A stretch of DNA of 26,445 bases from a virus. Every line of letters starts with the position of its first letter. Position 1 is the stretch's first letter. This document shows positions 615 to 22,074 of the stretch, piece by piece. Position numbers and translations under genes: made by a program. The notes beneath the pieces were generated by a model. It was not told the DNA's origin. It did not search any database and saw only the letters and a program-made list of their open reading frames with translations. The stretch spans positions 1 to 26,445 of IMG/VR virus record IMGVR_UViG_3300031707_000149; one strand, given 5' to 3'.

Positions 615-852
615 TTTGCCCTCCAATTTCAGACTTCACAGACAGTGTTTTCAGCCCGATGATTTGGTCCACCGGCCCGCTGGCCTGTGGTCTATCTGGC
701 GGAAGCGCCGCCAGTTCCGCTCGCAACGTCTCGATCTGCTCGCGCAGGTGCGCGATGGCCTGATCCCTGCGCGGGTCGGGGTCGTTCGCTATGCTCTGGA
801 TAAGCCATTCCCCCAAACCGATCCGCGCCTCGATATCTCTGCGATCCCTCAT
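607..852 (-). CDS. Small coiled-coil protein (81 aa)
   Basis: The start ATG (852-850) overlaps the stop TGA (851-849) of the upstream large repeat protein as ATGA, so translation is probably coupled. The protein is short and charged. Residues about 28-52 (R-R-D-Q-A-I-A-H-L-R-E-Q-I-E-T-L-R-A-E-L) form a likely amphipathic helix or coiled coil, followed by a Pro-containing linker. It has no signal peptide, metal-binding cysteines or catalytic motif. A small helical protein after a large fibre gene could be an assembly chaperone or trimerisation factor, but that is inferred only from shape and position. Confidence 0.65.
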   Translation of the reverse strand: MRDRRDIEARIGLGEWLIQSIANDPDPRRDQAIAHLREQIETLRAELAALPPDRPQASGPVDQIIGLKTLSVKSEIGGQNG

Positions 853-3800
853 CCATCACCTCCTGCCAGTTTATCCTCTATGACCACCACATAGAGTTGC
901 AACTCGCTCAACGTCACTCCACCAACTTGTAGCTCGCTCAACGTCACCCGATTGACCAGCATCTCACTGATGTCAATGTGGGCCAAGTAGCGGTTCACGA
1001 CGTCCACGGTGGGGGCCAACGAGGCCAAGTGGGCGACGCCCATCCAGATGTAAAGGCCAGTGAGGTTGGAGATCGTCGCCTGCCCCGCTGCCGCTGCCAG
1101 GACGAGCGCGTCCAGTTGCACGGAGACTTCGCCCAGCAGCAATGCCAGCGTCCGCGCCGATCCGCTCAGGGGCAGCGCGCTCAGGGCGATGGCCACGGCC
1201 CCCGGACTAACGTCCATCCCCGGCGTCGCCGCAATGATAGCCAGCGCATCCAACAGCAGGGACACACCCCCCGGCATGATCATGGCAACTCGCGCCACTG
1301 AGACCATCGCCAGCGCATCCAGGGCCAGGGCCACGGTTCCGGGTTGCACATCTAACCCTTTCACTGCCCCGGCCAGCGTGAGCGCATCCAGCACCAGGGC
1401 CACCGCTCCCGGCGAGACGTCCAACGCCCGCGCCGAGCCGGACAGGATCAGCCTATCCAGGGCGATCATCCCGCCGATCATGACGGACAGCGTTGGCGTC
1501 TCGCCTACCAGGGCCAAGGCTTGCATCGCCAGGGCCACTGCGCCGGTTTGCACGTCCAGGCCAAGGGCAGATCCCAGAAGGCTGAGAGCCTGCATGGCCA
1601 GCGCCACCACGCCTGGCTGCACATCGAGTGTGCCCGCTGCTCCGATCAGGCTCAGGGCGTCCATCGCCCTGGCCACGGCCCCCGGCGTGACCGTCGCCGT
1701 TTCCGCCGCCGATAGCAGGGTCAATGCGTGCAAAGCCAATGTGGCCGCGCCCGGAATCACATCCAGCCCGAACGGCGTGCTGAGCAGTGTCAGCGCATCC
1801 ATCAATAACGCCACAGCGCCCGGCCCCACATCTAGCCCCAACGCAACGCTTGCCAGGCTTACGGCATTGAGCACTAGCGCCACCACTCCCGGTTGCACGT
1901 CGAGGATCGGGGCTGCACCCCCCAGGATGAGCGTCTGCATGTCCAGGGTGGCAGGCGCTCCAGGCTGCTGAACATCGAGAACCTTCGCCGCCGCCAGCAG
2001 GGTCAGCGCATCCATCACCACGGCCACCGCCCCTGGCGTGACATCCAGGGTCTTTGCGGCCCCGCTCAGGATCAGCGCGTCCAGGGCCAGGGTGACAACC
2101 GCCACTACCGCCGCGTCGGGAACGGATGAGGTCAATGCCAGCGCACCCATCGCCAGAGATACTGCGCCCGGCTGCACATCCAGGAGCTTCGGGCTACCTA
2201 TCAGCAGCAGGGCATCCATCACCTTTGTAACCGCCCCTGGCGTAACCGTGGCCGCCTTCGGCGCGCCCAAAAGGGTAAGGGCGTCCATCATTAGCGATAT
2301 AGCGCCGGTCACGTCCAGCAGCTTGGGAGACCCGGCCAGAACCAGCGCATCCATCGTCTTGGTGATTGCTCCCGGCTGCACATCCAGTAACTTCCCGCTT
2401 CCGGCCAGGATCACCTTGGCCAGGTTCACCGTTGCGCCAGTGACTATAGGTTCCAGGGCGATGGACATTGCGCCCTTATAAGACGTGTGGGCCAAGTCTA
2501 CAGTGGTATTGCCATAGGCCCCGGCGTTCGCCCTCTCTCCCGTCGCCATGCCATGCCCACCGCCCAGGCCGGTGGTGCGGCAGTTGTCCGCCCGCTCGGT
2601 GATGGACTCGAGACCGGCATTGGCCCAGTTATTAAACTCTGTCGTGCTACTACTGTTGTAGCTGGTGGAGCAAATGAGCACGAGCAGGCAAGCATCAACC
2701 GTCGTTGTCGCCCCTGGGATAACACCCGTCAGGTCGTTCGCCCCACCATCGTTGCCCTCTGCATACACATTCCAGGGGTTTTCCGAGGCCTTGCACCCGC
2801 TGAATAGATAACTCTGTGCGGTTGCGTGGTCGCCTGGGGCTGCAACTGTCGGATCGCCGTCAGAGCCAACGCAGCGTTTCCAGTAGACCGCGATCCTGGA
2901 TGCGGGGTTGACCCCTCCCGTCCCAGCCGCTTTGTTCGCCTGAGCGCCCAACTCTACGAACCCTGCCGCAAAGCTTAGCGATATGGCCTGATTTTCCGAT
3001 TCCACGACGACTATGGCGATGTCTCCGGCAACAGGAGCATTAGGCGCGGTTGGCAACGGGACTGACAATGCTCCCGTTCCATAAACGTATACCCCCGATG
3101 CCTTGAAAGTCGGAAAAGCCAGGGTGGTGGTATATTCCACTACCAACTTGGGGCGATAGGCGGCCGTGGCATGGTCTGAGCTCGCCAGAAAGTTATTGGT
3201 GCCCGTGATGCCTATGAGCACCAGACCATAGTTCGTGTTGCTTGGCCCAAACCAGTCTTCTACCCGCGATGCGGTCAGCGCTGTAGAATACTCTGTACCC
3301 ACTGGAGCGCTGTCAACGACAGTGAAAGTGCCGAGCAAGCTCGATTCATAATCCGTCCCCGATGTCTGACAGCCAGCTGATCCCGGCCAAGCCACGGTAG
3401 CGTACCTTTTCCAGTCCCAGGTAGACTCGCCCACCGCAGCAACCGCCTCATTCTTGGTGCCCTCAACCCAGTCCTCGTTGGCCTGAGCCACGGAGTAGAC
3501 GTTGACCGTGCGAGACCCACCGGCGTCCAGGTAGTTGACAGTCATGTAGAGCGTGGCGCTAACACACACGTCTGAAGGGTGTCGCACGCTCAGGTCAAAC
3601 TCCAGTAAGGAGCTCATAGCCGCCGGTCTTGTTTCCAGATGGTCGGAGATGCCGCTATTCCAGGTCGGTTGTGTGCTATAGAGATAGCAGTCTTTGCCCA
3701 CCGTCCCTTGCGGTTGCAGGGTCATCGTGGGGTCAATCGTCACCGGGTAAACCGCGCCCGTGAAATCGGCGGTGAACTCCACGTATCCACCAGCATAAGA

Positions 3801-4382
3801 CGTGCTGACAGCGATAGGGACGCCGTTCGCGTCCGCGCCCGTTGGCCTGTAGACCACGCCGACAACCTCAGCCTCGGACAGCACCCGCCAGTTGTTCCAA
3901 GTGAGGCCGGTCAAGCTGACAGGCCAGCGAATGCGGCGAGCGGCGGCAGCGGTCTTGAGCACAACGTCAAGCTTTACGCGATGCCAGTTGACCTCGACGC
4001 GGAGGGAAAAGTTGGTTTGGTCCCAGAGGATTGTACTGCCCGCGCGCGTGGGCGCGTTGAGCGGCAGATCAGCCCAAGCGGAGCCGGTCCAGTATTGCGG
4101 CCTGCCAAACTCTACATACTCGGTGCTGACGTTGCGGCGCGGATACCAGCGGCGAGTGCCGTCCGTCTTAGCATAGATGGCATGGGCCATCGCCTTTGCC
4201 ATGTGCGCGAAGGAGGGCAGGTCGCTGTTGACCAGGTTCTCATCAACTGCTTGCCACTGGTTGCTTTCGTCCTGATACCACTGGTCATGCAACGTATACG
4301 TGGCGCGATGACGCCCCGGCTTCCACGCCGGGTCGCGCTCGATAGTATAGTTCCTAGCGCGCCTGACTATCTCCACTGCCAT
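849..4382 (-). CDS. Large tail/fibre protein with DNRLRE-like domain and about 20 tandem 23-residue repeats
   Basis: The start is ATG 4382, preceded by AAAGGTGATTG; a TTG codon at 4385 is less likely. The gene overlaps the upstream gene by 29 nt. The product is about 1177 residues. Residues 1-210 form an N-terminal region rich in aromatic residues. About 212-420 resemble the DNRLRE family of secreted and virion surface proteins: an I-D-P-T-M-T-L-Q-P entry, S-S-L-L-E-F-D-L-S, N-E-D-W-V-E-G-T and a closing Y-R-P-K-L-V-V-E-Y. About 420-650 form a further beta-rich domain (G-D-I-A-I-V-V-V-E-S, Y-W-K-R). About 650-1107 are a tandem array of roughly 23-residue units. The last 71 residues hold a short duplication, VTLSELQVGGVTLSELQ. 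No catalytic motif is visible. The position after the tail-tip gene suggests an adhesin, fibre or virion decoration. The family match is by eye. Confidence 0.8.
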   Translation of the reverse strand: MAVEIVRRARNYTIERDPAWKPGRHRATYTLHDQWYQDESNQWQAVDENLVNSDLPSFAHMAKAMAHAIYAKTDGTRRWYPRRNVSTEYVEFGRPQYWTGSAWADLPLNAPTRAGSTILWDQTNFSLRVEVNWHRVKLDVVLKTAAAARRIRWPVSLTGLTWNNWRVLSEAEVVGVVYRPTGADANGVPIAVSTSYAGGYVEFTADFTGAVYPVTIDPTMTLQPQGTVGKDCYLYSTQPTWNSGISDHLETRPAAMSSLLEFDLSVRHPSDVCVSATLYMTVNYLDAGGSRTVNVYSVAQANEDWVEGTKNEAVAAVGESTWDWKRYATVAWPGSAGCQTSGTDYESSLLGTFTVVDSAPVGTEYSTALTASRVEDWFGPSNTNYGLVLIGITGTNNFLASSDHATAAYRPKLVVEYTTTLAFPTFKASGVYVYGTGALSVPLPTAPNAPVAGDIAIVVVESENQAISLSFAAGFVELGAQANKAAGTGGVNPASRIAVYWKRCVGSDGDPTVAAPGDHATAQSYLFSGCKASENPWNVYAEGNDGGANDLTGVIPGATTTVDACLLVLICSTSYNSSSTTEFNNWANAGLESITERADNCRTTGLGGGHGMATGERANAGAYGNTTVDLAHTSYKGAMSIALEPIVTGATVNLAKVILAGSGKLLDVQPGAITKTMDALVLAGSPKLLDVTGAISLMMDALTLLGAPKAATVTPGAVTKVMDALLLIGSPKLLDVQPGAVSLAMGALALTSSVPDAAVVAVVTLALDALILSGAAKTLDVTPGAVAVVMDALTLLAAAKVLDVQQPGAPATLDMQTLILGGAAPILDVQPGVVALVLNAVSLASVALGLDVGPGAVALLMDALTLLSTPFGLDVIPGAATLALHALTLLSAAETATVTPGAVARAMDALSLIGAAGTLDVQPGVVALAMQALSLLGSALGLDVQTGAVALAMQALALVGETPTLSVMIGGMIALDRLILSGSARALDVSPGAVALVLDALTLAGAVKGLDVQPGTVALALDALAMVSVARVAMIMPGGVSLLLDALAIIAATPGMDVSPGAVAIALSALPLSGSARTLALLLGEVSVQLDALVLAAAAGQATISNLTGLYIWMGVAHLASLAPTVDVVNRYLAHIDISEMLVNRVTLSELQVGGVTLSELQLYVVVIEDKLAGGDG
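903..947 (-). repeat. Short direct repeat, two copies of 15 bp with 30-bp period
   Basis: CTCGCTCAACGTCAC occurs at 903-917 and 933-947 on the plus strand. On the coding strand it encodes the duplicated V-T-L-S-E-L-Q near the C-terminus of the large repeat protein. Confidence 0.8.
1065..2438 (-). repeat. Tandem array of about 20 in-frame units of about 69 bp (23 aa)
   Basis: Reading the translated minus strand, I can align about 20 consecutive units of 22-24 residues, most exactly 23. The consensus starts P-G-A-V-A-L-x-M-D-A-L-T-L-L-G and ends with a variable pair and L-D-V-Q. The most constant positions are the Gly-Ala-Val entry, the D-A-L core and the L-D-V exit. Copies have diverged in both DNA and protein, so the array is not recently amplified, although some neighbours are close (for example the units with A-M-Q-A-L). 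Alternating hydrophobic residues suggest a beta-solenoid or stacked strand-turn fold. Fold and function are inferred. Confidence 0.9.
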
Positions 4383-4632
4383 CAATCACCTTTGCCGCTT
4401 CCGGCTGTGGCTCCGGCGGAGTCACTGGCCGAAGGACGATCTCGCCCCCCGCGTTCTGCGCGAACTGCCACTCCCCCAAAAGCCCTGCCGCGCTTGTGTA
4501 GAGAGCGCACAATTCCTTGAGAGCGCCTTCTAACTCCACGAGTTGCTTTTGTGCTGCTTCGCGAACCTGCGCCTGCTCCTTCGCGATCGAAAGCACAGCC
4601 CTCTGCCTGGCCGCGCTAAGTACATGATCCAT
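4354..4632 (-). CDS. Small helical tail-region protein (92 aa)
   Basis: The start ATG 4632 follows AAGGAGG with a 4-nt spacer, one of the best ribosome-binding sites in the window, and begins 8 nt after the stop of the 1807-aa tail protein. Residues about 5-45 are rich in Ala, Gln, Glu and Leu and look like a continuous helix or coiled coil. They are followed by G-E-W-Q-F-A-Q-N-A-G-G-E-I-V-L-R-P and a Pro/Glu-rich tail. The 3' end overlaps the next gene by 29 nt. No family is recognised. It may bridge, chaperone or trimerise the large fibre proteins on either side, but only context supports this. Confidence 0.7.
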   Translation of the reverse strand: MDHVLSAARQRAVLSIAKEQAQVREAAQKQLVELEGALKELCALYTSAAGLLGEWQFAQNAGGEIVLRPVTPPEPQPEAAKVIDGSGDSQAR

Positions 4633-10067: not shown

Positions 10068-10850
10068 CTATGCCCATCCGTCGTAATAGTCGAAAGTAAT
10101 CGCGCTGGAGTTGTTTCCCCCGGTGCGGGTTACCGTGATGTTGTTATAGCCCACATACATCCTAAGCCACTCGTTAATTTTGTGGTTGGCCGTGCGACTG
10201 AAACCGGAATAGGCGTCCACGCCATCGTTCTTGACCGATAGCGCCCCGCAATCTATCACCAGAGATTTCGTTGCGGCCAACGTACCCGCCCAGTTAATCT
10301 CGAACTGAGCGCTGACCCCGATCAGGATATTCGTGATCGCCGATCCTGCCGCAGTCAGGGTAATGATGGTGTTGGAGACCGGGTAGTCGCCGGCGTTGGG
10401 GCAGGAAATGACCTTGGGAGAGTTGTCCAGGTACTCCAGGGTATTACGGTGCGTCCCGTTCCAGCAGGGGCTGACCATCACGAACTCGATTTCGAACTGC
10501 AGGGCGAACGGGTAATCTGGCCGACGCGTGGCCCGCACTTCCTGCACGCGAGCGGTCGCGGTATGCGACGCCCCTCCGCCACTGTAGCGAATAAGCGATC
10601 CCCTGACCCCAATGTAGCTGCGCCAGGTCTGATATTCGGTCGCCAGAGCCGACTCGCTCGCGGCCACGTACACGCCCTTGGCCGTTACCGGATAGGCGGG
10701 CCGCAGCACCTGGTCAGTGAGCTTGGGATCATAGGATCCCCCCCCCGGCAGGGGGAACAGGTACGCCGGCGCCGGACCTGTGCCAATATCGTGATCGGCA
10801 TCGAGCAGAGGGATCGAGTGCCCGGCGAAGGACAAGAGATAATATGCCAT
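10068..10850 (-). CDS. Distal tail protein (Dit-like), 260 aa
   Basis: The gene lies directly after the tape measure (3-nt gap) and before the tail-tip protein, the standard position of Dit, the hub connecting tail tube to tip. The length of 260 residues fits the family. The N-terminal half is beta-rich, with W-R-S-Y-I-G-V-R-G-S-L-I-R and F-A-L-Q-F-E-I-E-F, as in ring-forming Dit domains. The C-terminal part (I-N-E-W-L-R-M-Y-V-G-Y-N-N-I-T-V-T) resembles the galectin-like second domain. Codons for L-P-G-G-G-S-Y-D-P contain a run of nine G on the coding strand (10738-10746). The assignment rests on synteny plus fold-like pattern, because Dit sequences diverge strongly. Confidence 0.75.
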   Translation of the reverse strand: MAYYLLSFAGHSIPLLDADHDIGTGPAPAYLFPLPGGGSYDPKLTDQVLRPAYPVTAKGVYVAASESALATEYQTWRSYIGVRGSLIRYSGGGASHTATARVQEVRATRRPDYPFALQFEIEFVMVSPCWNGTHRNTLEYLDNSPKVISCPNAGDYPVSNTIITLTAAGSAITNILIGVSAQFEINWAGTLAATKSLVIDCGALSVKNDGVDAYSGFSRTANHKINEWLRMYVGYNNITVTRTGGNNSSAITFDYYDGWA

Positions 10851-10853
10851 TTA

Positions 10854-13800
10854 TCACAACCCCCTGGCCCGCAGACCCTCGAGGACGCCGATCTGTGCCT
10901 GCTCGCGCGCCTGTTGAGGATGAGTGACCGGACCATTGAAGTTGATGATGATCGGTTGGCCGCCACCACCGCCCCCGCCAGCTAGGGGGGTGACCGTAAC
11001 CCGTTCCGGGTACTTGCCCTCGCCCACGCGAATCATCTGCGGTATCCTGGCGATGAAGTCGGCCCCATTGGCCAGACCGGGAGCTCCAGGGACAGATTGC
11101 CCATACTGCCCCCCGGTGCGCTCCTTCAGGAACTCTTGCATTCCAGGCGCGTTAATGTTGAAGTTGATGGGGTGCTTATCAAGAGTTGCCTGGATCAGTG
11201 CCGCCCACCGGTCTGCCGCCGCCACCAGCTCGTTGGCCGTCTTTATGTCACCACTGGCGATCAGCGCGTCTATCAGAGCCGAACCAGCATCTGTCCCCGC
11301 CGTTTTGGCCGCGGTATTGAGGCTGGACGTGTTCCAGTTTTCCCCAATATCAGCCAGGTTTTCCTCCATCACTTCCGTGAAGAGGCCGCCGTGCTTGTTG
11401 GCCGCAGCCACTATAGCCGCCGTCACGACGGGACTCTCCTCCAGACCCATGATAAAGCCCCCTCCCTTCTTTTCCAGGGACTTCGCCGAAATCCGATTGA
11501 CCTCATCCAACTGCTCCTCCGACAAGCCGAAGGTCTTCTTGAAAACCGCCTTGGTGAAACCTTCGTCAAACTTCTGGAACAACTCCGCCGTAGCCTCTCC
11601 GGCGGTCTCCGCCGCCGTCAGCAGGTGGTTCTTGAAGGCCAATGACGTCGTCGTTTGCGTGCCCTCGGAGCCAATGAGTGCATCTACTGCGTCCATCAGC
11701 AGATTGCCCACATCCGTCCCTGCCGTCTTGGCCCCCGCCTTCACCGTTTCGCTGGTGGCCCAGATCTTGAATGACGTGGCGATCTGCTCAGCCCACTTGG
11801 AGAAGTCGGTCATCCCCTGCACCAGCCACTCGCCGAGTTGGTTACCCATCACGGTCATTTTCTCCTGCATGCCGGGGGTCTTGATCATCCCGAACTCGCC
11901 GGGGATCTCTGTGCCCTTCCACCAGATCTGGATCATCGCTGGGATCTGCGCGCCCAACTCGGAGAACTTGGCGCTCACTGTGGGCCAGACCTCGACGATC
12001 TTCTCTCGAATGCCCCGGATGATCTCCCCGCCGATCCTTTGGGCCTCGACCCAAACGACGTCAATCACCCCCTGGACGCCCTCGGCCTGGTAAGCAGACT
12101 TCATCCGCCCCCAGAAGTCACCCGCCCAGGAATACAACTCGTCCCACTTCTCTTTGATCCCCTTCATCGCCTCCGGGATCTTGATCTTGGCCCAGTCCAC
12201 GATCTGAGTGAACACTGGCTTGCCGGTCTTTTCCCAGAACCCGCTCACCGCCGTGCGGATCCCGCCCCAATCGCGGATATAGGCCGCCACCAGCAGGCCG
12301 GAGAGGATAATCAACAGGGCAATGGGGCTGGCCAGGGCCCCGAAGGTGGTGATCAGCGCCCCCAGGATGCTCGCGATCTTCAGCCCGGCAAACACCGTCC
12401 CGAAACCGATGACCACCGCCTTGATATCCTGCAGGTGCGTCTTGATCCACTTCATCCCAGTGATGATCTTTCCCCCGGTCTCGTCACCGAAAAGGGCGAT
12501 GGCCAACACGCCGGGGACACCCATCCCCCCGCTTATTTTTTCCATTTCCGCCTGCATCTGGTAACGCAGATCAGTGGGGAGACCTTCAATCTTGAGGTTT
12601 GCCTGGAGGTCGCGGAAGGTCTGGACAGTTTTCAGAACGCGATCCACGGGCGCGAGCGCGTTTTTCACCCCCACACCCAGTTGCACGCCCCACGTCTCCA
12701 GCACGCCGCTGTCGCGTACATCCAGGAACAGGTTGAGCATCGTGCTCAACCGCTCGTTGACCTGCTCCATCGCTGGGCGCAGGATCTGGGGCATCGTCAG
12801 GGCGAAGATGTCTTTGAAGGTGCTCTGCAGGCCCATCAACGTGGTGGCCATGCGCTCGGAGGCCCCGCCGAAGTTGACATCGGCGTACTCGGCGAACGCC
12901 TCAGTGAACTGCTGCCAGGTGATCTTGCCGGAGGCGATAGCCTTGTTGAAGTCGAGGTGATCCTTGATCAGGATGCCGTACTTCTTCCCGGTATACTCCA
13001 GCACGGCGCTGAGATCGAAGCCGGCCATCGCCAACTGGCGCATATCCATCTTGGTCACTGAGCCGACCATGCGGATCTGCGCGAAGTTGTAGGCCATGCG
13101 GTGCAGCATCTCGTTGGTCGCGCCCGTCCCGGCGGCCACGTTCAGGATGGCCTTGGTGAACGACATCGCCTCCTTGGACGTATAGCCGAAGGTCATGGCG
13201 AGCTTGAAGGTGGAGTTGACCATCTCCACCTGGTAGGGAGAGACGATGGCCAACCGCGCCAGCTCGTTCATCAACTCTTTGGCTCGCGCCTGGGCAATGG
13301 GGTAGGCTTCGGAGATGGTCGTCTGGTTGATGTACATTTGGCGGGTGGCCGTGGAGACGGCATACGTCGCCGCCGCATGATCGGTCAGTTTCTCTTTGGC
13401 GATGTCCAGGTCGCCCAGCGCCACCTTGAGCTTGGTATCGTAGCTCTCCACGGCGTGCTGCGCCGACATCCACTGGCTCACAGCGACCTTTTTCTTGCCG
13501 CCTAGCTCAACGAGTTTCTGCTGGGCAATGGCCAAGTGCTCGCCATAGTCAGTGATCTTCAGGTTCAGGTTGGCCTGGGTTTCCATCAGCTTGTCGTTGG
13601 CCTTAGACTGCTTCGCCGTGGCCCCGGCCATCACCGTATAGGTCTCAGTGACCAGCTCCCCCTTGGAGATCTCCCGCGCCAGGAGGCCGGTGATCCCGAT
13701 CTCCATGTACTGCAACTCAGCGGTTGCCGCGATGGCGCTCTTGACGAAATTCGTGACCTGGTTGGTCAGTTGGTTGAACAGGTTGGCGGCGATCACGCCG

Positions 13801-15789: not shown

Positions 15790-16151
15790 TACAGCATCTC
15801 CCGGCAGACAAGGCGCAGGGCCGAGACGTAGCTCCCCCCGCTGGCCGCGCCCACGATCCGCAAGTCGTGCCCACTCACCAGGAGCATGTCGTCGTGCAAC
15901 ACATCAGCGTCGTAGGGCAGGGCCAGCGTCCACAATACCTCCCCAGCCAACTGCTCGCCCACAGTGAACTCCCGCGGCGAGCCGGCCTTGAGCCGACAAT
16001 CATAAGTGTGGGCCACTGCCGTACCCACCGTTACCCAAGTGCCCACGGCGTCCTTGGAGCGGGTAGGCCGCAGCACCTGGCAAGAATCGGGCAGGTACAT
16101 CTCAGCCTCGTCGCGGAACCCAGCCAGTTCCACAGCGTCAAACGTTACCAT
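15789..16151 (-). CDS. Head closure / head-tail joining protein (120 aa)
   Basis: ATG 16151 lies 14 nt inside the end of the connector gene. The product is a small beta-barrel-like protein (P-D-S-C-Q-V-L-R-P-T-R-S-K-D-A-V-G-T-W, C-R-L-K-A-G, then D-M-L-L-V-S-G-H-D-L-R-I-V-G). The arrangement of Cys-Arg-Leu and the late G-x-x-L-R-I-V-G strand fits stopper or head-closure proteins that seal the portal channel after packaging. The gene position between the connector and the gp10-like gene matches this job. Sequence conservation is weak in this family. Confidence 0.75.
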   Translation of the reverse strand: MVTFDAVELAGFRDEAEMYLPDSCQVLRPTRSKDAVGTWVTVGTAVAHTYDCRLKAGSPREFTVGEQLAGEVLWTLALPYDADVLHDDMLLVSGHDLRIVGAASGGSYVSALRLVCREML

Positions 16152-16698
16152 CGTTGCGCTCCCAGTTCACGGTGATCGCCCACGACTTCTGCTCATACTT
16201 GGCGGCCATGCGCTCGCAGTGGTCGAACCAGTTAGAGCGGCTATACGAGGCCCCGTCCGCCCCGAAGGAGTATTTGCTGGACTGTAGGCCCATCCTCTCG
16301 CGCCACGCCTGGCCCGCGGCCCCGTTCAGGTCGTATCGCCGGGCGTCCAGGTAACGGGCAGACCCCTCCTGGTTAGCGGTAAAAGTCACCCGCCCCGTGA
16401 TATAGTTGACACTGTACGTCGAGGTGCCGATGGTCGAGCCGGCGGAATCGTAGATCCGCCAGTAGTCCTCCCCAGAGAACCAGTCCTCCAGATCGCCGTA
16501 GGCACAGAGGAACGTCTTGTACATGATCGTCCCGTTGACATACTTGGAGACCGGCGCCAGGTGAGACCCAAAGATCTCCTCCATATGAGCATCCAGCATC
16601 TCCTGCAGCTCGTCGTCGGTCCAGACCGCCGCAGTGGAATCGTCTATCATCCGCCGCAGGCGGGTGATCAGGTTGGCTATCCCAGCGCGAATGCTCAT
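16138..16698 (-). CDS. Head-tail connector / adaptor protein (186 aa)
   Basis: I chose ATG 16698 (MSIRAGIANLITRLRRMIDD) because it overlaps the stop of the upstream glycosyltransferase as ATGA and has GGAGAGG upstream; the open frame extends further, to 16800, inside that gene. The N-terminal helix (L-I-T-R-L-R-R-M-I-D-D-S) followed by W-T-D-D-E-L-Q-E-M-L-D-A-H resembles adaptor proteins that bind the underside of the portal (gp6/gp15-type). The middle holds an extended beta region, I-T-G-R-V-T-F-T-A-N. The coupling to a glycosyltransferase gene is unusual and shows that the glycan cassette and the connector genes share one message. Confidence 0.75.
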   Translation of the reverse strand: MSIRAGIANLITRLRRMIDDSTAAVWTDDELQEMLDAHMEEIFGSHLAPVSKYVNGTIMYKTFLCAYGDLEDWFSGEDYWRIYDSAGSTIGTSTYSVNYITGRVTFTANQEGSARYLDARRYDLNGAAGQAWRERMGLQSSKYSFGADGASYSRSNWFDHCERMAAKYEQKSWAITVNWERNDGNV

Positions 16699-17369
16699 AT
16701 CCCCCACCTCTCCCGATCCAAGGGTCTGGCGACGCGCCAGGATCCGTTCCCCCAGACGCTGGCCCGCTCCCCGATATGCTCGGTCAGGTCCAGGGCGCAC
16801 AGCACCCTGCCTTGTTCGCGCAACCGCTTGCAGACCGCCAAGTCCTCGCCGCCGGTCGTCTCCGCCAGAGGGCCGATGGCCGGCCAGTCCTTGGCCCGGA
16901 AGCTCCAGTTGCTGCCCGGCACACTGGCCCGCGCCAGCGCCCGCTGCCCGCCGGCCTCGATGACCCCGGATGGCTTATTCCAGTCGTAATCCGGCTCCAG
17001 GTTGCAGCAGACCAGGGCCACCTCTGCTGGCGCATCGCCCCAGAAAACAGCCAGTTTGTCTGCCCAACTGGCCACATAGCGGTAATCGTCTGCCGTAAAG
17101 AGCACGACGTCGGGCTTCCACTGCAATGCGCGGTTGATCGCCAGGTTCATCCCGTGCCCCACGGTGGCATTCCCGTCCCGGTTGCAGTAACCCGCCGGCA
17201 TCTCGGCCACCCAATCCTGGGTGCCGTCGTGGGAGCCATTATCCACCACGGTGAGATGCCACTCGATCTGTGGTTCGGCGCGGTACAACCCCGCGCCCAG
17301 GCTGCTCAGGGTCTGAGTAAGCATAGCGAGGCGGTTGTAGGTCAATACGGCCACCGCCAGGCGCGTCAT
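16695..17369 (-). CDS. GT2-family glycosyltransferase (224 aa)
   Basis: This is a GT-A fold enzyme that would transfer a sugar from a nucleotide-sugar donor. Residues 4-12 (L-A-V-A-V-L-T-Y-N) start the Rossmann-like domain. V-V-D-N-G-S-H-D-G-T at 41-50 is the usual nucleotide-binding loop. T-A-D-D at 92-95 is the DxD-like metal site. G-G-E-D at 173-176 fits the family ED catalytic-base motif. There are no membrane segments, so it is probably cytoplasmic. The start overlaps the preceding stop as ATGA, and its own stop overlaps the connector start the same way. It is the last of four coupled glycan genes. Donor and acceptor cannot be read from sequence. Confidence 0.88.
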   Translation of the reverse strand: MTRLAVAVLTYNRLAMLTQTLSSLGAGLYRAEPQIEWHLTVVDNGSHDGTQDWVAEMPAGYCNRDGNATVGHGMNLAINRALQWKPDVVLFTADDYRYVASWADKLAVFWGDAPAEVALVCCNLEPDYDWNKPSGVIEAGGQRALARASVPGSNWSFRAKDWPAIGPLAETTGGEDLAVCKRLREQGRVLCALDLTEHIGERASVWGNGSWRVARPLDRERWGI

Positions 17370-18127
17370 GGCACCTCCGCGATATACTGCGCGAATCGCT
17401 CGCGGTTCTCGACCACGAAGCGGGGGAAGGTCGCGTCAAACGGCACGAACGCGAACTTTAACCCGGCCTCGCCCCAGTCACGCCCCTCTCGAATGCACTC
17501 CTGCAGGCGCTCAGTGTTGATATAAGCCGGGCTATTGACCTCCTGGTGCGAGTAGGCCCGAACCTTCTCCTGGATGAACTTGGCGTCGCCCAAGTAGGTG
17601 AAGTGCCATCCGGCGTCGCTCAGATGAATATCGCCCAGGGTCTCCCTTGTGGCCTGCGGGCGCACCAGGTCGCGCCGCCGAACAGCCCGCGTGCCCGGCC
17701 AGTCCATGTGGATCGCCCGGCAGTTGAACTTGTAGAAGCTGAGTGGGATCATGAAGGTGACCATGCCTTTGAAGTCTCCCAGGGCCGATACGAGATCCGC
17801 GCGGGGTATCTCGTCCAGGTCGCTGATCAACACTGTGTCTGCGGGGTTGGCGTCCCCCAGGCCGTGCATGCAGGCGTCCCGTTGGTAGCGATCCCGGCAG
17901 AACAAGATGCAGCCGGGAGGGAAACGATCCACCATCACATGTACAAACCGCTCGTCCCACCGGGCATAGCGTGCCCGGTTCTCGGCGAAGTAAAGCGGCT
18001 TCGGCAGTCCCGAAAACGTCTCCGTGGCCTCCACGATCACGAAACGATCTACCACATCCTCTAACTCGCGCAGGCGGATCTCCAACAGGTCGAACTCGTG
18101 CAGAAACATGAAGCAGTCCCAGATCAT
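17366..18127 (-). CDS. GT17-like glycosyltransferase (253 aa)
   Basis: I chose ATG 18127 (MIWDCFMFLHEFDLLEIRL) because it overlaps the preceding stop as ATGA; the open frame extends further upstream within the previous gene. Typical GT17-family features are W-D-C-F-M-F-x-x-E-x-D-L-L at residues 3-15, F-V-I-V-E-A-T-x-T-F-S-G at 29-40, Y-Q-R-D-A-C near 81-86 and I-S-D-L-D-E-I-P-R at 101-109 carrying the metal-binding aspartates. The family is named for the eukaryotic bisecting GlcNAc transferase, but bacterial and viral members act on largely unknown acceptors. No membrane segment or signal peptide is visible. It is the third gene of the glycan cassette. Confidence 0.88.
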   Translation of the reverse strand: MIWDCFMFLHEFDLLEIRLRELEDVVDRFVIVEATETFSGLPKPLYFAENRARYARWDERFVHVMVDRFPPGCILFCRDRYQRDACMHGLGDANPADTVLISDLDEIPRADLVSALGDFKGMVTFMIPLSFYKFNCRAIHMDWPGTRAVRRRDLVRPQATRETLGDIHLSDAGWHFTYLGDAKFIQEKVRAYSHQEVNSPAYINTERLQECIREGRDWGEAGLKFAFVPFDATFPRFVVENRERFAQYIAEVP

Positions 18128-18816
18128 CCCTGCCCCCTGGCTTTGCGGTTGAGGAAGATCTGCAACCACACGTTGACTGCCTCGAGCACTCCGCTCAAGT
18201 GCAGACTACTCGTCCCGGCGTAGTAGACGATGGGGAACTCGACGATCCGCAGTTCCGCCTCCACCGCCCTGGAGAGCACCTCCATCTGCCAGGCGTGCCC
18301 CTGGGCAAAGTACTGGCCCTTGATCAGCTTGATCAGCGCCTTTCGGGTGAACGCCCGGTAGCCGCTCGACCAGTCCGAGAACTTGGTGCCCATCGCCAGG
18401 TTGCAGAGCGCAGTCATCGCCCGGCTGCCCAGGCGCCGTAGCAGCGATCCGCCCAGGTAATGTCCGAAGGGGCAGAAGCGAGATCCGATGGCCACATCCC
18501 CGCCCAGGTCGAGCATCGCCAACAGCCCTATGGCGTCTGCGGGGTTGTGCGACATTCCTGCGTCGAGTTGCACCAGGCGTTGCGCCCCGTGCAGGTTGAT
18601 GGCATCCCACCACAGATCTACCAGGCTGCGGGCGATCCCTTTGCGCGTGTCGTGGTGGCGCACATGCGCTCCGGCATCCTCAGCGAACCGCCGCGTGCGG
18701 TCCGTAGAGGCGTCGTCGCAGACCAACACCAAGAACCCCAACCCTCGCAGGGCCTTGACCAGGGGGAAGATCGTCGCCTCCTCGTCCCGCGCCGTGATCA
18801 CTGCGACGTCGTTCAT
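18124..18816 (-). CDS. GT2-family, DPM-synthase-like glycosyltransferase (230 aa)
   Basis: ATG 18816 overlaps the upstream stop as ATGA. V-I-T-A-R-D-E-E (7-14) and V-C-D-D-A-S-T-D (32-39) mark the nucleotide-sugar fold. The D-G-S-R-F-like segment I-G-S-R-F and the D-W-S-S-G-Y-R-A-F motif are typical of dolichol-phosphate mannosyltransferase-like enzymes, which often charge a lipid carrier with a sugar. The expected DxD metal motif reads D85-A-G87, so the second aspartate is missing. The family's C-terminal membrane helices are absent, with only a mildly hydrophobic end (L-E-A-V-N-V-W-L-Q-I-F-L). It is the second gene of the cassette. Lipid-linked transfer is possible but not shown. Confidence 0.85.
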   Translation of the reverse strand: MNDVAVITARDEEATIFPLVKALRGLGFLVLVCDDASTDRTRRFAEDAGAHVRHHDTRKGIARSLVDLWWDAINLHGAQRLVQLDAGMSHNPADAIGLLAMLDLGGDVAIGSRFCPFGHYLGGSLLRRLGSRAMTALCNLAMGTKFSDWSSGYRAFTRKALIKLIKGQYFAQGHAWQMEVLSRAVEAELRIVEFPIVYYAGTSSLHLSGVLEAVNVWLQIFLNRKARGQG

Positions 18817-20636
18817 GCGGCCTCCGGTTTCTGTAGCAGCACGTACAGGTTGGATCCTTCGGCCACATCCCAATCCCTGCGTTTCGTGAACTCGTCGAGC
18901 GTCTCCGGGTGCGCCAGCAGCCCGTCCTTGCCGAAGATCCCCGGCGGCGTGCTGCGCCACTCGCGGCGCAGGAACCCAGCATCGTCCACCGCTTTCGCCA
19001 GGCTGTCGAAGTCGTAGCCCCGCAGGTGTTCCTCCCCATCCACCATCTTCCCATCGGGGTCGTTCGGCGTGGCGATCAGCGCGTGCCCGCCCGGAACCAG
19101 GATGCGGTAGATATTGGCCAGCAGCGCCTGCGGGTCGGGGACGTGCTCGATCAACTCCATCGCCACTACCAGGTCGTAGGCCCCGTCATCGCCGACAGTC
19201 AATGCATCCCCGACCACCAATCGGGCCTTATCGCCCAGGGCCTTACGGGCTTCGACGATGCGCGTCTCAGAGATATCCACCCCCTCCATCCTCCACTTGA
19301 GCACTGGGGCCACTGCCTGCAGGAACTGCCCTTCGGCACAACCCAAGTCCACCATGCGTTGGACATCGAGATGACCCGTCATGAACATCGCCAGGTTGTG
19401 CCGCCCCAGGTTGTACCAACGATCCGCCTCGCTCCGTACCATCTCCGCGTCGCGCCGGGCGATGGTCTCATAGAGGCGTTTCTGCGAGCTAAAGCCCCTT
19501 TCCTGCTCGACGCCGGCCAGGAACGGCCCCCAGTAGTCTCGCGCCACCTTATCCCAGTCGTACTCCTGCGCCTGCTTGACCGCGAACGCGCATTTCTTCA
19601 GTTTGGCCTTATCGCCCCAGCGGAAGATCTCTTCCAGGGCCTCGCGCACCGCGTCCACGGAGATGGCCGCAATCCAACTCCCCAGCGGGGTATAAGTCAG
19701 TTGATAAGGCTCTATGGCGATCCCCGCCCAGGTCAACTCCGGCATGCTCGTCCAGTTCGTGGTGATCACTGGCGTCCCACAGGCTTCCGCCTCCAGGATG
19801 GGGATCCCAAACCCCTCCGCGCAGGCCGCGGCTAAGTGAACGTCCGAGGCGCGGTATACGTCAGCCAGGTAGGTTTCGGGCAGGCCCATCAGGTAGTGAT
19901 ACTGCGGCACATACTTGAAAGCATCTTTTGGCAGGCCGATCACCTCGGTATAGGCCAACAAGTTCACGCCATCGTCCATCCCGGTCATCTCCATGTGCAG
20001 GTACAGGAAAGCGTCCGGGTGCTTGTCCCGAAAGCGCTTGAACCCCAGGATGTTCTCGCACAGCGCCTTGCGCGACGGGAACCCCTTATTGGCCGCGACC
20101 ATGTCCACGATGTAGGCGTCCTTGGGCAGCCCCAGTTTCAGCCGCGCCCCGGCCTTGTCACCGGGGCAGTACACCTTGGTATCCACGCCGTGCGGGATGT
20201 AGTGGACGTTCTCGATCCCCGCCTTGCGGGCCTCCTCCAGGCCAAACTTGGAGTATACCAGCGGATAGTCTGCAGTCTTGGCCATCTCCGCGACGCGCGG
20301 CGGGATCGGTTTGTGATCCACTGGGAACCACGGCGCCCACAGAGCCTTGAAGCGCGTGTGGTAGTCCGGCGGGAGCACCCAGATGTCTTGCAGGCTGATC
20401 ACCAACTCGGCCTGGAAGTTATGAACGTGCCCCCCAATGATATCGCTCCCCCAAGGGTCGTGCAGGCAGGGGTACATAATCAACCCCCCAGCGTCTATCT
20501 TGGCCCCTTGCAGGCCGTACCACGCGAACTGGGCCACTTCATGCCCCAGATCCTTGAGCCTCGGCAGCAGGTACTTGCCCTGGATTCCGTACCCGGTATG
20601 GCTCCAAAGGGCATTTGCGGAAAAAAGGATTCTCAT
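18813..20636 (-). CDS. GT4 glycosyltransferase fused to SAM-dependent methyltransferase (607 aa)
   Basis: I chose ATG 20636 (MRILFSANALWSHTGYG) because AGGAGAGAGAG lies 4 nt upstream; the open frame reaches 20678. Residues 1-370 form a GT-B retaining glycosyltransferase of the GT4 type: G-Y-G-I-Q at 15-19, Y-I-P-H-G-V-D at 146-152 and the EX7E motif E274-GFGIPIL-E282. Residues about 390-607 form a class I methyltransferase: motif I V-D-L-G-C-A-E-G at 429-436, G-V-D-I-S at 452-456, E-H-V-P at 497-500 and V-P-G-G at 514-517. One polypeptide could therefore add a sugar and methylate it or its neighbour. It heads the coupled cassette and is preceded by a structured leader. Both domains look intact. 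Confidence 0.92.
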   Translation of the reverse strand: MRILFSANALWSHTGYGIQGKYLLPRLKDLGHEVAQFAWYGLQGAKIDAGGLIMYPCLHDPWGSDIIGGHVHNFQAELVISLQDIWVLPPDYHTRFKALWAPWFPVDHKPIPPRVAEMAKTADYPLVYSKFGLEEARKAGIENVHYIPHGVDTKVYCPGDKAGARLKLGLPKDAYIVDMVAANKGFPSRKALCENILGFKRFRDKHPDAFLYLHMEMTGMDDGVNLLAYTEVIGLPKDAFKYVPQYHYLMGLPETYLADVYRASDVHLAAACAEGFGIPILEAEACGTPVITTNWTSMPELTWAGIAIEPYQLTYTPLGSWIAAISVDAVREALEEIFRWGDKAKLKKCAFAVKQAQEYDWDKVARDYWGPFLAGVEQERGFSSQKRLYETIARRDAEMVRSEADRWYNLGRHNLAMFMTGHLDVQRMVDLGCAEGQFLQAVAPVLKWRMEGVDISETRIVEARKALGDKARLVVGDALTVGDDGAYDLVVAMELIEHVPDPQALLANIYRILVPGGHALIATPNDPDGKMVDGEEHLRGYDFDSLAKAVDDAGFLRREWRSTPPGIFGKDGLLAHPETLDEFTKRRDWDVAEGSNLYVLLQKPEAA

Positions 20637-20763
20637 TGTGCTCTCTCTCCTAGAGCCGGGGGGCAAGTTGGTGAGCAAGGAGGAAAGAGAGAGGACTCTG
20701 CCAACAGCCCCCCGATAGTAAGGAGCCGGAGAGAGAGTACTCTCTCTCCTCCCCGGCTTGACC
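20637..20763 (-). promoter_or_regulatory. Structured 127-nt leader upstream of the glycan cassette
   Basis: In an operon where most genes touch, this gap contains two strong inverted repeats. The first, 20724-20758, is a 22-bp perfect palindrome extended by AGCC/GGCT with a 5-nt bulge. The second pairs CGGGGGGC (20714-20707 on the coding strand) with GCCCCCCG (20664-20657) and adds an inner GTTGG/CCAAC pair. The GT4 ribosome-binding site, AGGAGAGAGAG at 20651-20641, is complementary to CTCTCTCTCC in the 3' half of the palindrome and to CTCTCTCT in the loop of the second hairpin. This suggests alternative pairings controlling translation. No promoter or U-tract terminator was recognised. Confidence 0.5.
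20728..20749. repeat. 22-bp perfect palindrome, copy 1 (core AGAGAGAGTACTCTCTCT)
   Basis: The palindrome lies in the leader of the glycan cassette. Its 18-bp core, at 20730-20747, is identical to the core of a second palindrome at 22684-22701 inside the scaffold gene. Confidence 0.9.
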
Positions 20764-21150
20764 CTAGAAAGTCACGTCGAGTTGCACGGAAAGCAGCACG
20801 AAAGTGCCCGTGCCTTCCTCGTTGTAGTTCAGGGCGATCACGTCTCCCTCGGCCACGTTCACGGCAGTGTCGGTCTCCGCCAGCAGTGTCTTGGGCACAA
20901 GACTGGTCCAACCTGCTGTGCCGCCAGCGATAGAACCGAGTAGCGTCGTCCCGGCGCCGGCAGCGCCGACGTTCTTGAGCTGCGCGGCGAAGTAGTTCGC
21001 CGTGCTCGCAGCCACGTCGTTGACCACTGTGGCATAGGCCCCGCGCAGCACGCACGCCTTGGGCGCGCGCCAGATCGGGATCACATCGTCCGCAGCGGGG
21101 TCGTAATCCAGGGACACCACCTGCGAGAAGCGCAGAAGTCCTTGATGCAT
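20764..21150 (-). CDS. Putative capsid accessory/decoration protein (128 aa)
   Basis: ATG 21150 follows GGAGGTAAACTACC. The protein is small, soluble and beta-rich, with I-P-I-W-R-A-P-K-A-C-V-L-R-G-A-Y-A near the start, a Gly/Ala-rich centre (K-N-V-G-A-A-G-A-G-T-T-L) and a late V-A-E-G-D-V-I-A-L-N-Y-N-E-E-G-T-G strand pair. The position immediately after the major capsid gene, separated by a GC hairpin, suggests a capsid decoration or stabilising protein. No motif proves this. It is one plausible acceptor for the glycans made by the next four genes (inference). Alternatives include another head-completion factor. Confidence 0.6.
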   Translation of the reverse strand: MHQGLLRFSQVVSLDYDPAADDVIPIWRAPKACVLRGAYATVVNDVAASTANYFAAQLKNVGAAGAGTTLLGSIAGGTAGWTSLVPKTLLAETDTAVNVAEGDVIALNYNEEGTGTFVLLSVQLDVTF

Positions 21151-21219: not shown

Positions 21220-22074
21220 TTAGCTCGGCTCAGTGACGTCGCTGGTGTACTTCACGCCCCAGGTGGGCCGGCGGCCCAGGCCATGCGCGTAGATCGCGCT
21301 GATGTTCAACTCGGTCGCCTTGCGCGAAGCGTCACGCTCCGGCTCCGACTCCGGCGGTTGGCGGCTGTCGAAAGCCAGCGACTGCGGGTTGAAGATGCAC
21401 GACACCGCATCGGTGCCGCTGGGCACGATGTTGGCCGAGACGTACCAGTTCGCCAGCAGCCAGTCGCCCACATAGAAGTCCTTGAGTGCCTGGCTGGCCA
21501 GGTCGCCCAGCAGCGCCTTGGTGGCCGCGGGCTGGCCTAACTCGCTCCAGATGTCGAACCAGCAGTAAGGATGCAGGACGATCTGGATCGGGTTGGGGCA
21601 AAGCGCATTGCGGAGGACCGCAATCGCCGTGGCGAACTTGGCGATGGTCGCCGTGCCCGACGCGCCGGGGCCTTTGTCCGTGGCCAGGCTGGCGAAGTCG
21701 GCGCACATATCCCTGTCAATCTTGGTGGAGATGGCGTTGCCCAGCTCCGTGGCGCACTGCGCTTTGGCATTCTCCGGGTCGGTGTCCAAGTCCTCGTCGG
21801 TCAGCAGAGACTGCGCGAACACCGTCGCCGGGGTCAGCGTGCCCACGCTGGCTTTCCCGAACTTGATCGGGGTGACAAAGTCCTCGCCCTCCGCCTTCAC
21901 TGTAGCCGAGATCTGCGGGCGCGTGGTGAAGGTGCGGGTCATCATGCCCTTGCCAGTGAACGTGCTGACCAGGCCGGTCATGATGTTGGATTCACGAGCC
22001 ACGAAGATCGCGTCCTCGAAGATCGCGTTGTAAAGACTGTTGAGATCCGAAACCTTGGTGATACCTGTGGCCAT
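21220..22074 (-). CDS. Major capsid protein, HK97-fold (284 aa)
   Basis: ATG 22074 follows AGAGGAAAAC. The protein has an N-terminal helix with E-D-A-I-F-V-A-R-E-S-N-I-M, then an extended loop (T-F-T-T-R-P-Q-I-S-A-T-V-K-A-E-G-E-D-F) and helical P-domain segments (L-G-N-A-I-S-T-K-I-D-R-D-M-C-A-D-F-A). Next comes the typical I-Q-I-V-L-H-P-Y-C-W-F-D-I-W core, and the C-terminus closes with G-R-R-P-T-W-G-V-K-Y. This order, the length and the location directly after a scaffold-like gene support a capsid subunit of the HK97-like fold. No N-terminal protease gene or delta domain is seen, so the scaffold is separate and the mature protein probably starts close to the encoded N-terminus. Confidence 0.88.
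   Translation of the reverse strand: MATGITKVSDLNSLYNAIFEDAIFVARESNIMTGLVSTFTGKGMMTRTFTTRPQISATVKAEGEDFVTPIKFGKASVGTLTPATVFAQSLLTDEDLDTDPENAKAQCATELGNAISTKIDRDMCADFASLATDKGPGASGTATIAKFATAIAVLRNALCPNPIQIVLHPYCWFDIWSELGQPAATKALLGDLASQALKDFYVGDWLLANWYVSANIVPSGTDAVSCIFNPQSLAFDSRQPPESEPERDASRKATELNISAIYAHGLGRRPTWGVKYTSDVTEPS

Follow-up and report, generated by a model that had tools for sequence, protein, structure and literature searches.

A GT4-anchored, exchangeable slot in phage head operons as a probable virion-glycosylation locus

A 26,445-nucleotide stretch of an uncultured siphovirus-like phage (IMG/VR record IMGVR_UViG_3300031707_000149), hereafter the window, carries four sugar enzymes inside its structural operon, which lies on the minus strand. 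Judging from their sequences and setting, we consider it probable that these enzymes form the phage's own virion-glycosylation system, in which a variable, often methyl-capped glycan would be assembled in the cytosol on a virion protein. By analogy, the best reading is that the cassette would act like gp35-gp38 of mycobacteriophage Corndog and A064R of the chlorovirus PBCV-1. Systems of this kind are already known from Corndog, Che8 and the chloroviruses; what is new is a lineage-wide slot, anchored by a GT4 glycosyltransferase (GT) and exchangeable behind it, together with a leader RNA. Gene order, enzyme families, conserved position, co-inheritance with head genes, modular exchange, fusions and covariation between the leader loop and the Shine-Dalgarno (SD) sequence are directly observed, and the virion-glycosylation interpretation of an initial annotation is thereby partly supported.

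The operon runs from portal, MuF-like protein, two small genes, scaffold, major capsid protein (MCP) and a 128-aa protein, through the four enzymes, to the head-tail adaptor, stopper, neck, tail terminator, tail tube, chaperone, tape measure and distal tail proteins. Several of these names are synteny-based; on both sides of the cassette the genes are structural (SPP1-type portal, MuF-like protein, scaffold, MCP, neck protein, tape measure). The cassette occupies 16695-20636, between capsid-side genes and adaptor, exactly as first annotated. The adaptor, then called a connector, retains that role by synteny and a sequence signature and has no Pfam or PHROG match. Exact 4-nt ATGA overlaps link the three junctions inside the cassette and the GT2d/adaptor junction, but the claim that all junctions are of this type fails upstream, where a 127-nt structured leader separates the gene of the 128-aa protein (a predicted cement protein) from GT4. 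Since the portal/MuF junction is likewise an ATGA overlap, such overlaps are an operon mark and nothing special. GC content at third codon positions is equal in the cassette (0.81-0.85) and its neighbours (0.82-0.87), and thus the cassette genes look resident.

The first enzyme is a fusion of GT4 and methyltransferase (Pfam Glycos_transf_1, 1e-9, and Methyltransf_23, 4e-18; PHROG 2170, E 5e-34). Its GT4 part is modelled by AlphaFold as a GT-B fold (predicted local distance difference test, pLDDT, 93.9), carries the E-x7-E motif of CAZy family GT4, and has MshA and B736L of chlorovirus NY-2A as its closest folds in Foldseek; the methyltransferase part is class-I, with a VDLGCAEG motif. B736L prefers GDP-mannose in binding (PMC9614988), and carried over by fold this is only a lead to the donor of the window GT4. 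The second enzyme, GT2b, matches Glycos_transf_2 (1.5e-7) and the profile of Pyrococcus dolichol-phosphate-mannose synthase (DPMS; 5mlz, E 2e-13), and aligns with the P. furiosus enzyme. It is DPMS-like only, because the DXD motif (DAD in P. furiosus) reads DAG in the GT2b of the window and of relatives L003 and L005, and because its 230 aa include no C-terminal membrane helix; nor does the cassette hold a partner-subunit gene. The third enzyme belongs to CAZy family GT17 (PF04724, 114 bits against a gathering cut-off of 26; DLD at residue 103), and the sequence search gave it no relative of solved structure. The fourth, GT2d, matches Glycos_transf_2 (3e-8), contains a DD motif, and is 73% identical to its counterpart in L005 and 59% to those in L207/L208. 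Both GT2 enzymes have GT-A folds, so the four different folds first proposed reduce to GT-A for these two, GT-B for GT4, a separate family for GT17 and the class-I fold of the methyltransferase.

The position of the cassette is conserved in relatives while its content is not. The close relative L003 has all four genes at the same place; L002, equally close, has the cassette there too, on a contig that stops within GT4. GT17 turns out to be optional, being absent from L005 (MCP 69% identical), which keeps GT4-methyltransferase, GT2b and GT2d. We then scanned with an MCP alignment, which does not directly select GT genes, and counted those loci where 870 nt or more follow the MCP and MCP identity is at least about 32%: GT4 was in the slot in 20/20 of these loci, or about 15 once near-duplicates are removed. 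In a more distant MCP branch, none of 33 loci with more than 1.5 kb downstream has GT4, and a recognisable 128-aa gene is also absent.

Adding loci reached through GT4, we read 27 complete slots. GT4 is in every one, and the genes behind it are exchanged between lineages: GT2 with an epimerase (as in the cultured phage Mae-JY09), GT2-like with methyltransferase and GNAT, a second GT4 with methyltransferase, UDP-galactopyranose mutase with methyltransferase, PglD-like with methyltransferase, formyltransferase, MptE/Maf-like or radical SAM genes. The four genes are thus no fixed unit; only GT4 is constant. Its fusion partners vary as well (Methyltransf_23 in the clade of the window, an FkbM methyltransferase at six further loci, Methyltransf_11 in L114, a GT34 domain in L109), and this recurrent fusion or adjacency of GTs and methyltransferases supports a methylated glycan. 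The multi-step, methyl-capped oligosaccharide originally suggested fits a GT4 fused or adjacent to several unrelated methyltransferases.

Cultured phages share the slot. In Microcystis phage Mae-JY09 (PP395641) and Pontimonas phage phiPsal1 (MG835450), which infect different hosts and were annotated by others, GT4 directly follows the MCP or cement gene and sugar genes continue until the neck. The Mae-JY09 MCP is 36% identical to that of the window and its GT4 43%, whereas the tailoring genes differ from the window's (GT2-like and SDR epimerase in Mae-JY09, methyltransferase and GT2 in phiPsal1). No paper that we found describes this slot as a virion-glycosylation locus. A DNA-level search of cultured phages gave no match; among cultured phages GT17 had three distant matches and GT2d none. 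The refuting condition set in the initial annotation, homologues in host polysaccharide loci instead of structural operons, was thus examined on the phage side, and there the outcome favours virion glycosylation: dozens of phage contigs, the two cultured phages and rearranged relatives all keep the enzymes after the capsid/cement gene and ahead of the neck/tail-tube genes. A GT17 gene also occurs in another phage contig (L201:6001-10643), in a separate glycan island near endolysin-like genes, along with epimerase-like, methyltransferase-like and two GT-like open reading frames (ORFs).

The cassette is tied to the virion genes by inheritance. GT4 distances track those of MCP (Mantel r 0.63), portal (0.76), cement protein (0.79) and adaptor (0.83), with p=0.0005. 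In L207/L208 the cassette is split (cement, GT2b, GT2d, methyltransferase, adaptor, stopper, GT4, neck, terminator), and all its pieces remain inside the head-neck block. Strongly hydrophobic segments are found in 3 of the 109 ORFs of the complete slots and are absent from the other 106; export or flippase machinery is therefore nearly absent, and cytosolic chemistry on a cytosolic acceptor is to be expected. The 128-aa protein is modelled as a jelly roll (pLDDT 89) with a weak Foldseek match to the trimeric cement protein of KHP40 and matches to other viral jelly rolls, and this predicted cement protein is a good candidate acceptor. In L018, L077 and L079 its gene stands in two tandem copies between MCP and GT4.

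The 127-nt leader of GT4 forms a hairpin with a loop that is complementary to the SD of this gene over 8 bp in the window, 8 in L002, 9 in L003, 10 in L005 and 9 in L013, the sequences being different in L002, L005 and L013. The claim is carried by a permutation across leaders: the longest loop-SD helix of 42 non-redundant GT4 leaders averaged 5.69 bp, against 4.59 after loops and SDs had been shuffled between phages (z 7.1, p<5e-5), and a control region just upstream gave z 1.7. Tests on single leaders were mostly not significant individually, nor was the permutation within the five-member window clade alone. In 19 leaders resembling the Rfam motif int-alpA, the loop also matches the first G-run ahead of the SD (z 6.0), so two alternative pairings are possible. 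RNAalifold recovered only six pairs from the leaders, because P1 is poorly aligned. The strong SD AGGAGAGAGAG is used by other genes of the window too, and the anti-SD octamers CTCTCTCC and CCTCTCTC occur on the window's coding strand only in the GT4 leader.

Some relatives have recognisable int-alpA elements (RF02996, gathering cut-off 35.8) as their GT4 leaders: L087 scores 43.8, L090 40.6 and L111 38.6, with L023 and L026 just under the cut-off. Matches above threshold fall exactly at these three leaders and nowhere else in 145 kb, which places the motif as a cis leader upstream of a head-operon GT gene, where it was not expected. The window leader itself has no Rfam match in cmscan, int-alpA included, and is a divergent element. 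We infer that the leader reduces or regulates cassette translation relative to the capsid.

Table 1. Features of the cassette and its surroundings in the window, with int-alpA matches in relatives.
Feature	Position	Strand	Basis
GT4 glycosyltransferase (about 19482-20636) fused to class-I S-adenosylmethionine (SAM) methyltransferase (about 18813-19439)	18813..20636	-	Pfam, PHROG, AlphaFold, Foldseek, motifs
GT2b: GT2, DPMS-like, soluble, DAG replacing DAD	18124..18816	-	Pfam, DPMS profile match, alignment, hydropathy
GT17 family glycosyltransferase, optional cassette member	17366..18127	-	PF04724 E 9e-33
GT2d: GT2 glycosyltransferase	16695..17369	-	Pfam; relatives in L005, L207/L208
Probable head-tail adaptor, ATGA-coupled to cassette	16138..16698	-	Synteny, sequence signature
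128-aa jelly-roll protein, predicted capsid cement/decoration protein, candidate acceptor	20764..21150	-	AlphaFold, Foldseek
MCP, candidate acceptor	21220..22074	-	PF25209, phrog_267, alignment
Structured 5' leader of GT4, loop complementary to GT4 SD	20637..20763	-	
GT4 SD AGGAGAGAGAG	20641..20651	-	
int-alpA matches in GT4 leaders	L087:6314-6383, L090:1513-1576, L111:4759-4824		

How could such a cassette work? The closest precedent is Corndog, a Cluster O mycobacteriophage in which gp35-gp38 (an O-methyltransferase, two glycosyltransferases and a GlcNAc-transferase) lie in the head operon between portal and protease; these proteins are made in infected cells and missing from purified virions, and a methyl and glycan modification of the capsid was proposed (PMC4351075). 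Che8 gp110 and Corndog gp38 are reported as essential for capsid glycosylation in a passage of PMC12363180 that cites Freeman 2023. Like Corndog, and the Che8/Corndog/Myrna systems in general, the window phage has several GTs and a methyltransferase within its head operon, so that GT and modifying genes sit inside the structural block. Unlike Corndog, it carries them between cement protein and adaptor, with a constant GT4 at the head that is partly methyltransferase-fused, a GT17 and a structured leader. In S-CBS4, the GT4 family is found with a GT and a methyltransferase between portal and protease, which is Corndog's interval.

Chlorovirus A064R, a GT-GT-methyltransferase fusion, builds and O-methylates the end of the capsid glycan (PMC9614988). 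The window cassette resembles A064R and A546L/NY-2A B736L in its soluble virus-encoded GTs and its GT-methyltransferase fusion, and the fold of its GT4 is very near B736L. The chloroviruses differ in being eukaryotic algal viruses with N-glycans and, in A064R, GT-A domains; they represent a separate evolution without a common operon.

We propose that the four soluble transferases would work in the cytoplasm during late expression and build up a short glycan on a virion protein in the course of assembly; this protein may be the MCP, the cement protein or a neighbouring neck or tail-tube protein. The constant GT4 would make an early or the first linkage, the exchangeable GT2, GT17 and GT2 enzymes would extend or branch the glycan, and the methyltransferase fused to GT4 would O-methylate and cap a sugar. 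GT4 translation would begin at an SD that the upstream RNA loop can sequester, and after this start ATGA coupling would let ribosomes continue across the four enzyme genes as far as the low-copy adaptor gene. SD sequestration and ATGA coupling would thus set enzyme output apart from the high output of capsid and cement protein. A bolder version, to which we give somewhat less than even weight, is that of a capsid glycotype locus of a large uncultured phage lineage: GT4 would prime, swappable tailoring genes would alter the outer structure, as in bacterial O-antigen loci, and the whole locus would be translated under an int-alpA-type SD-sequestering RNA that sets enzyme dose against capsid or senses a ligand.

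Several observations weigh against virion glycosylation. The likeness of the window GT4 to the Corndog and Che8 enzymes is shown only at the family level, and the activity of GT2b is uncertain because the second Asp of its DXD is missing. The MCP query alignment consists of four sequences, each from a phage that carries GT4. Some slots hold genes without an obvious glycan role (radical SAM, HNH, DNA methylase, TnpB), and no acceptor motif was identified. GT4 is also present without a cement gene in L099, L106 and L108; the acceptor is therefore not fixed, and at least there it must be the MCP or a neck or tail-tube protein. We accordingly dropped the cement protein as sole acceptor.

The enzymes might instead act late in infection on a polysaccharide or glycolipid of the host surface, for receptor masking, superinfection exclusion or keeping progeny off debris, and owe to the head operon only their late expression. 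GT2b does resemble DPMS and GtrB-type polyprenyl-phosphate transferases (it matches the GtrB-like phrog_841 weakly), phrog_2170 and phrog_841 are classed as morons in PHROG, and an ABC transporter adjoins GT4 in L100. An O-antigen conversion module would combine a GtrA flippase, GtrB and a membrane-bound Gtr, and the window has neither GtrA nor Gtr, no membrane domain on GT2b, no membrane protein among the four enzymes, and no placement in a lysogeny region. Because membrane proteins, flippases, GtrA and polymerases are almost absent from the 27 complete slots, modification of a host glycan becomes unlikely, the more so as the cassette stays tied to the head genes even after rearrangement and as GT4 is in all complete slots while tailoring genes vary, unlike typical serotype-conversion morons.

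Modified DNA bases are well-known substrates of phage GTs, and small-molecule GT4s (MshA, BshA) are among the closest folds, so the acceptor might be phage DNA with a glycosylated hypermodified base, or a small metabolite. We hold this to be quite improbable: no base-hypermodification genes were seen beside the cassette, in a window that excludes the replication half of the genome, the cassette lies in the head operon, and tailoring genes that vary among methyl, acetyl and galactofuranose types suit an oligosaccharide. The least probable view, which we give very little credence, treats the slot as a neutral insertion hot spot after the capsid/cement gene with sugar genes as unconnected passengers. 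Genes such as TnpB in L003, HNH in L105, DNA methylase in L107 and radical SAM in L092 and L111 would suit it, but GT4 is in every complete slot, is co-inherited with head genes and has its own conserved leader, and the slot content is strongly biased toward glycan chemistry. L003 carries two IS200/IS605-type TnpB-like genes inside the structural operon (10208-11311 and 1726-2805, both minus strand), one of them exactly between GT2d and adaptor.

Bacterial genomes gave limited clues to the host. A scan with a GT4 alignment and generic GT4 motifs returned, among the matches listed, only partial ones (24-44%). A prophage search by MCP had hits in 20/400 Chloroflexota, 1/397 Actinomycetota and 0/292 Cyanobacteria genomes. 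Four Chloroflexota loci that we examined (L221, L222, L223, L224), possibly defective or domesticated prophages, have MCPs 27-29% identical to the window's and no GT4; in the two that were read, the ORFs after the MCP have no Pfam match. Given this identity and the lack of GT4, they are another branch and leave the host unsettled. On contig L225, from an Actinomycetota genome of 1.6 Mb, methyltransferase-like and GT4-like genes come after an MCP relative, which may hint at the host of the phage lineage.

Two further observations concern neighbouring structural genes. The MuF-like gene, intact in the window, appears in L003 (8-1684) to carry an intein-like insertion that separates 'DGRTC' from 'CLSCWAKHG'. 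The window also encodes a 1178-aa tail protein (849-4385, minus strand) in which a degenerate repeat of the type 'LDVxPGAVxLxMDALxL' recurs about 20 times.

Among tailed phages, a few mycobacteriophages have proven virion glycosylation, and ordinary annotation would label the genes of this cassette as morons. If our interpretation is true, it would be a fixed, lineage-wide trait of environmental phages with a serotype-like exchange of glycan genes, and one would then ask what purpose a capsid glycan serves away from any animal immune system, be it stability, protist grazing, mucus or particle binding, or evasion of host surface defences. Two cultured phages share the slot, which makes the proposal directly testable. 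In addition, the leader makes translation control a candidate role for a structured phage RNA that is so far known chiefly as a motif.

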